Translations under genes and position numbers: made by a program
The notes under the pieces: model-generated
What the model saw: the letters and a program-made list of their open reading frames with translations, nothing else
Databases searched by the model: none
Told to the model about the DNA's origin: nothing
Assembly (NCBI RefSeq): GCF_000765215.1
Contig: NZ_JPJE01000018.1
Coordinates: 124,001 to 188,000, forward strand
DNA length: 64,000 nt
Origin: Eubacterium sp. ER2
GTDB taxonomy: Bacteria > Bacillota > Clostridia > Lachnospirales > Lachnospiraceae
Direction of reading: 5' to 3'
Shown here: positions 29,834 through 30,222 of the stretch, piece by piece
Layout: each line of letters starts with the position of its first letter
How positions within the stretch are numbered: position 1 is the stretch's first letter

Positions 29834-29852
29834 AAAGGGAGCGTGATCCGGA

Positions 29853-30155
29853 ATGATGGTAAAGCTGAATGACCAGGCCAGGGCATATATGGAAAGGCTG
29901 GGCTGGAGCGACCTTGTGCTTGGCGTGGAGGAGTACACCAGCTGATGCGCGCCTCCGTATAAGGAGATCGTGGTAAGTTTTACCCGAGAGGACAGGGAGG
30001 CCATGGAGGCGAAGGGCTATGTGGCCGCAGAGAGCGAGGTCGGTAATGTGTATTACCCCGCGGAAGGGGTGAAGACCTCGGAGGAAATAGCCGTGAATTA
30101 CATAGAGTACCCGTGGCTTACCAGATTTGAAGTGGAAGGGATCGAGCCGTCATAG
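29853..30155 (+). CDS. CC/Se motif selenoprotein, read through in-frame UGA at codon 31
   Basis: One frame runs from ATG 29853 (or the adjacent ATG 29856) to TAG 30155, interrupted only by TGA at 29943-29945, which is followed by a Cys codon: EEYTS-U-CAPPYKEIVV. The 100-residue product matches the small CC/Se motif family, in which the first Cys may be selenocysteine. Homology-like content continues on both sides of the TGA (YVAAESEVGNVYYPAEGV, then YPWLTRFEVEGIEPS). A hairpin at 29968-29987 fits a bacterial SECIS element. A gene finder would call only the last 61 codons. Its function is unknown. It probably shares a message with the upstream membrane gene and ends at a strong terminator. Confidence 0.82.
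29968..29987 (+). other. Candidate bacterial SECIS hairpin
   Basis: A stem of eight pairs, TCG with CGA below and GGTAA with TTACC above, has a single bulged U at 29971 and a three-base GTT loop with G first. The loop begins 32 bases after the UGA, inside the usual 16-37 range. Both ends lie within the coding frame. Confidence 0.65.
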
Positions 30156-30176
30156 AGCGGGCGGCAGCTGGAAAGA

Positions 30177-30222
30177 AAACTCTGTGCAGATGAAAAACAT
30201 CGGATCTGCACAGAGTTTTTTT
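30177..30222. terminator. Terminator after the selenoprotein gene (bidirectional)
   Basis: A 16-bp stem, AAAACTCTGTGCAGAT with its complement, is followed by a run of T residues to 30222. It also faces the minus-strand gene that ends at 30224. Confidence 0.9.

Follow-up and report, generated by a model that had tools for sequence, protein, structure and literature searches.

Does the TGA that interrupts a short reading frame of Eubacterium sp. ER2 encode selenocysteine (Sec), and what kind of protein would then be made? The frame lies on the forward strand at positions 29853..30155 of the window, by which we mean the entire stretch of 64,000 nucleotides that was analysed. An earlier note had described it as 101 codons that are open except for a TGA at 29943 next to a Cys codon (TS-U-C), and this description was confirmed on the sequence: the TGA at 29943-29945 (+), with TGC as the next codon, is the sole interruption, and 100 residues are specified before the closing TAG at 30153-30155. 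The translation reads MMVKLNDQARAYMERLGWSDLVLGVEEYTS-U-CAPPYKEIVV..., with Sec at position 31 adjoining Cys32, and it holds this one Cys, this one Sec and no further Cys. Two start codons are candidates, ATG 29853 and ATG 29856, the latter being favoured by the homologues, and a GGGAG at 29837..29841 (+) reads as a possible ribosome-binding site with rather long spacing. On the 3' side of the gene, a strong hairpin with a terminal U-run (30173..30222, +; fold energy -27.2 kcal/mol) is a probable transcription terminator; the terminator scan, whose loop limit is 8, detected none. The only Rfam match above gathering score in the window is the class A RNase P RNA at 1112-1461.

Conservation of the UGA and the selenocysteine machinery

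That the TGA is a true stop, leaving either a pseudogene or a gene whose product is confined to the 61-codon GTG fragment (29970-30155), is the reading that a mechanical listing of open reading frames would favour, as this fragment is all that it reports in this frame, just as had been predicted for a standard caller. Moreover, under a similarly loose rule (a length of at least 100 codons, a single TGA inside, at least 25 codons on its 5' side and at least 40 on its 3' side) the window contains 158 stop-to-stop frames, and we accordingly dropped the open frame itself as evidence. Since frames with a single TGA are not rare in the window, the case rests on comparison.

Among 299 genomes from the same family, counting that of the window, 13 yielded a match, and every match has a single in-frame stop that is TGA and falls in the same column (13/13). 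A pattern-based, non-exhaustive scan of genome_contigs recovered 14 loci from Lachnoclostridium sp. An118 (93% identity), Claveliimonas, Dorea, Faecalicatena, Merdimonas, Mordavella and uncultured relatives, all 14 with TGA in that column; a Cys-Cys form, which one of the two patterns encodes at the site of the pair and ought to have detected, was absent from these 14 loci. The family-scan sequences fall into nine, the window included, with TS-U-C-APP or a near variant (group 1), and four with C-(N/S)-T-U-(G/S)-G, i.e. CxxU (group 2). As six of the 14 genome_contigs loci encode the same protein as a family-scan member, five of these on contigs of equal length, 17 distinct group-1 sequences remain, or 21 with group 2. 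Conserved sequence in the homologues already precedes the UGA, and each homologue seen has TGA at this place. The possibility that they all begin after the UGA, which the earlier note had named as a finding that would sink its proposal, thus did not materialize, while its impression of protein-like sequence on both sides of the TGA was borne out.

These comparisons speak against a true stop. The TGA is kept in 21/21 distinct sequences, window included, on which basis we rejected the pseudogene and true-stop readings; the region before the UGA is conserved as well, and the closest pair has a dN/dS of 0.37 upstream of the UGA and of 0.17 downstream of it (dS before the UGA was not estimable in two other pairs tried). 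We consider it very improbable that the TGA terminates translation.

The genome also has the means to read UGA as Sec. SelA, SelB and SelD all score above cut-off and a tRNA-Sec with anticodon tca is found at 65.3 bits, and thus the whole set of genes that had been proposed as a check, and whose absence would have told against a selenoprotein, is present. SelD, SelA and SelB lie on one contig (C56), with the tRNA-Sec ~9 kb further. The SelD of this genome contains an in-frame TGA of its own (SKTAG-U-AAK; L018 1531-1533) and, judging from this sequence, is probably itself a selenoprotein. Across the family, SelA is above cut-off in 11/13 genomes with a homologue versus 45/299 overall (hypergeometric 1.8e-8), the genomes being, by their handles, those in which the homologues had been sought. 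In the two remaining genomes, G104 has the tRNA-Sec with SelA and SelB not above cut-off, and in G231 (82% complete) SelA, SelB and tRNA-Sec are all not above cut-off. We attribute the lack of SelA and SelB in G104 to an assembly gap or recent loss. G104 carries a group-2 homologue with its SECIS stem intact (L029, L081).

A conserved hairpin downstream of the UGA

A bacterial SECIS (bSECIS) hairpin is predicted at 29968..29987 (+), beginning 22 nt after the UGA. In the minimum-energy fold a lower stem of 3 pairs (29968-29970 with 29985-29987) is followed by the bulged U29971, a core stem of 5 pairs (29972-29976 with 29980-29984) and a GUU loop (29977-29979), in agreement with the eight pairs, bulged U and GTT loop that had been drawn by eye. 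According to a 2026 review (PMC13188914), the bSECIS model calls for G within the first two loop positions, a stem of 4-16 pairs, a loop of 3-9 nt, a distance of 16-37 nt from the UGA and an energy of -7.5 kcal/mol or lower. The GUU loop, the 5 conserved pairs (8 with the bulge) and the UGA-to-loop distance of 31 nt fall within this geometry, in line with the fit that the earlier note had claimed. The energy is -6.4 kcal/mol for the 26-nt stem alone and -12.6 kcal/mol for 53 nt including a first hairpin. Both values are unexceptional: 6.75% of synonymous recodings of the isolated 26-nt stem reach -6.4 kcal/mol, and z is -0.94 in the 53-nt fold, for which reason hairpin energy alone was dropped as evidence.

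It is conservation, as judged from the aligned sequences, that lifts the hairpin far above chance. The 5-pair core is paired in 105/105 cells from 21/21 distinct sequences of groups 1 and 2, some sequences have both partners replaced at two of the core pairs (compensatory changes), and in 0/500 shuffles was the number of paired cells, the number of cells with both partners altered or the covariation score as high as observed; for the other two of five covariation measures the alignment does not exceed the shuffles (303/500 each). Within group 1, full core pairing is seen in 17/17 sequences versus a mean of 14% and a maximum of 47% upon synonymous recoding. Stem codons are invariant (GTA 17/17, TTT 17/17) and Val and Phe codons elsewhere vary, with p 0.005 in a frozen-codon test that just three stem codons were eligible for. 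As the aligned sequences are related, the shuffle, recoding and codon figures all overstate independence. When groups 1 and 2 are compared, a stem U-A becomes C-G as Val and Thr become Ala; in this alignment RNA and protein change together. The 5-pair core alone is shared by all aligned sequences: a lower stem in the bulged register occurs in the window and the two sequences closest to it, 10/17 group-1 sequences form 3 lower pairs without a bulge, and the others form fewer.

The first small hairpin (CTCC/GGAG; 29953..29966, +) lies between the UGA and the SECIS stem. Its four pairs (4/4) are all formed in 17/17 group-1 sequences, compared with a mean of 4% and a maximum of 24% among synonymous recodings, and synonymous variation is absent there too (CCT for 16/16 Pro, GAG for 17/17 Glu).

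On the basis that the UGA at codon 31 is conserved, that it is followed by a bSECIS hairpin and that SelA, SelB, SelD and tRNA-Sec are encoded in the genome, the UGA would be read as Sec, and comparative sequence analysis thus identifies this gene, almost certainly, as a selenoprotein gene.

Kinship with CC/Se proteins and the predicted fold

The earlier note had assigned the product to the CC/Se motif group. Kinship was upheld, curated membership was not: the NCBIfam model NF041239 (Moor_selen_rel) aligns residues 1-96 to its positions 1-90 of 91 at 13.6 bits, compared with a cut-off of 40, and at E≤5 it matches only 4/13 aligned sequences. No Pfam match was obtained for the window protein at E≤10. 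In the 2026 review, the CC/Se family is entered as a hypothetical protein with a CxxU motif and one Sec, predicted in Moorella (PMC13188914). The window protein shares with this family its length, the weak full-length match, a chalcogen pair in the same loop and a model that resembles IscA, but it has TS-U-C-APP in place of CxxU (U-C with no preceding Cys), the latter motif being present in the four group-2 sequences. In profile comparisons, group 1 is linked to the broad CC/Se set at E 8e-9 and the CC/Se set to five HesB-like selenoproteins at E 1e-7, while the direct comparison of group 1 with HesB-like selenoproteins was non-significant (probability 3.7, or 36 with group 2 added); these hhalign pair values lack calibration against a database. 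We place the window gene in a new subfamily of the known CC/Se kind.

To what extent is the pair itself a feature of the wider group? NF041239 matches occur in 36/391 genomes of the class, and 55 of the 58 matches were tabulated, leaving out L053 and L054 (frames of more than 400 aa, CorC/HlyC-type by eye) and L117 (a fragment). The loop of these 55 members reads CC in 19, UC in 10, UU in 9 and CU in 7, so that 45/55 carry an adjacent pair; of the rest, nine have a Sec with no adjacent Cys or Sec and one has none of these. That Sec can occupy the first position of the pair, the second or both points to joint action of the two. The UU members, nine in all (L055-L063, L127-L135), carry TGATGA; in the class scan, run with internal stops, UU rows fall below the NF041239 cut-off, whereas the three of these nine proteins that were scanned with Cys substituted for Sec all pass it. 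Several CC- or UC-type genes (L035, L036, L040, L041, L047) adjoin genes for zf-HC2-like anti-sigma and B-box-like zinc-finger proteins, and L043 has a B-box-like zinc-finger neighbour (all named by eye). In the literature searched, which did not extend to Haft and Tolstoy 2025, the accession NF041239 appears in one paper, and no paper giving an IscA fold for CC/Se proteins, UU forms or an arsenic link was found.

An AlphaFold2 model built from 13 sequences (pLDDT 94.7) predicts a HesB/IscA A-type carrier fold for the window product. Foldseek places IscA, SufA and relatives in its top 11 rows (E from 4e-5 to 0.1, with E≤0.001 in four), at TM values of just 0.39 to 0.62, and in the rows that follow the probabilities are 0.2 or lower. 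VIA-align superimposes 86 residues on IscA (1r94) at 2.5 Å with Z 8.6, a value barely above the 7 to 8 that this tool usually gives as top score to models lacking an evident match; its ten best entries are all IscA-type, the next entry after these is at Z 2.2, and only two chains reach Z 8. The model of a UU cousin (pLDDT 94.1) retrieves the same proteins more weakly, with a best VIA-align Z of 6.3 and no Foldseek row at E 0.001. Two CC/Se members are hit by the A-type carrier profile PF01521, with per-genome E values of 2e-4 and 1e-3 but in both cases below its cut-off, and NF038090 weakly matches some CC/Se cousins, also below cut-off; PF01521 has no match in the window genome. A PDB sequence search with the alignment returned two DUF4465 proteins (E 2e-5 and 2e-4), which we took as chance: the matches are scattered stretches, none significant singly (independent E 0.2 or worse). 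IscA was absent among the 8 matches of that search.

With the A-type carriers IscA and SufA (PF01521, TIGR02011) the window protein thus shares a predicted fold. IscA has C-terminal Cys-Gly-Cys ligands. By contrast, the window protein lacks this C-terminal Cys pair, Cys32 being its sole Cys, and has two adjacent chalcogens at the first site. The position of IscA's first cysteine corresponds to Cys32 in the direct group-1 alignment and to the first residue of the pair in the broad set, and the Sec31-Cys32 pair would on these alignments straddle it. The Sec of HesB-like selenoproteins (TIGR01911, NF038090) also aligns with IscA's first cysteine, and these proteins resemble the window product in having a Sec on a HesB/IscA-type domain near this position; one of them, from Methanococcus maripaludis, was reportedly found by 75Se labelling (PMC11097638). 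They differ in that the five fetched carry G(Y/V)GU(S/G)GP and a C-terminal Cys, and 0/13 aligned sequences match TIGR01911 or NF038090 at E≤5 (HMMER filters drop most weak matches). For this HesB set six places were taken as HesB-type, L105 being omitted, L104 unused, and L103 and L106 being the same as L037 and L045. That the window gene encodes a selenoprotein and that this protein has a HesB/IscA-like fold is, as a joint statement, highly probable; what the protein does can be said less firmly.

Possible roles of the Sec-Cys pair

If the model is correct, the product folds like HesB/IscA A-type carriers with a single chalcogen site, the adjacent Sec31-Cys32, and this pair would be the working centre. 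The pair probably serves either in soft metal(loid) binding or in redox chemistry. By analogy to its cousins, we tentatively favour a role as soft metal(loid) ligand or chaperone; As(III), for one, is classically bound by adjacent thiols. ACR3, ArsA, ArsD or ArsM genes lie within ~6 kb each way at 7/9 UU loci versus 1/45 other loci, the latter being of UC type (L042/L136). This count covers 9/9 UU, 10/10 UC, 6/7 CU and 11/19 CC loci, 15 group-1 and 3/4 group-2 loci, excludes single-Sec forms and includes loci of 7 to 16 kb, some cut short by contig ends; its Fisher value of 1.6e-6 is a guide only, as the UU loci are related and the link had been noticed on part of them beforehand. At the L135 locus, ArsR/SmtB, ArsD, ACR3, ArsA and arsenite methyltransferase pass NCBIfam cut-offs, and the other loci were counted by similarity to the L135 proteins. 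A YfcE-like phosphodiesterase gene adjoins the UU genes in five arsenic-gene loci (L128, L132-L135). UU proteins share with the window protein an adjacent chalcogen pair and a similar predicted fold, but they have two Sec and, unlike the window gene, 7/9 are encoded beside ArsR, ACR3, ArsA, ArsD or ArsM genes. No ars gene was detected in 15 group-1 loci of 7 to 12 kb, and no neighbour gene is conserved across genera among the window-subfamily loci compared, where sharing is almost wholly limited to the closest relatives and otherwise concerns ordinary transporter genes (at most 5 loci). The metalloid reading is therefore carried over from the cousins.

Two other roles have to be weighed against that of a soft metal or metalloid ligand. 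The Sec-Cys pair could be a redox centre forming a selenenylsulfide, for example to reduce a protein or small-molecule substrate: adjacent chalcogen pairs, and the CxxU of group 2, resemble redox sites, and the 2026 review expects redox roles for most uncharacterised selenoproteins (PMC13188914). Yet the predicted fold is of HesB/IscA type, with no thioredoxin-like protein among the 50 Foldseek rows shown, no conserved neighbour is at hand to supply electrons, and the genes linked to the UU cousins serve arsenic handling; we place a redox role somewhat behind the soft metal(loid) one. An IscA-like carrier of iron or an Fe-S cluster with a selenolate ligand would accord with the predicted fold seen by Foldseek and VIA-align, with the sub-threshold matches of PF01521 and NF038090 to CC/Se cousins and with the lack of any PF01521 match of its own in the window genome. 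On the other hand, the C-terminal cysteines of IscA are absent, leaving one Cys and one Sec, and a match in 13/299 family genomes is few for a housekeeping carrier; we regard this role as improbable. Our preferred reading, a ligand or chaperone for a soft metal or metalloid, extends to a more speculative proposal that is itself rather doubtful: the CC/Se branch of the HesB fold may, with the window subfamily included, have given up the carriage of Fe-S clusters and come to handle soft metal(loid)s through pairs of neighbouring chalcogens (CC, UC, CU, UU). The UU proteins encoded next to arsenic genes would then buffer or chaperone As(III) as diselenolates, and the window protein would be a stand-alone relative.

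With the locus comes a coherent subfamily of selenoproteins, 17 distinct sequences with TS-U-C-APP or a motif close to it. Since the window member scores far below the cut-off of the nearest NCBIfam model, annotation that depends on this model would probably shorten the gene or miss it. For a group that is entered as hypothetical in the 2026 review (PMC13188914), a fold and a testable function are now proposed. If the proposal holds, the Sec-Cys protein of the window would serve As, Hg, Se or another soft element.
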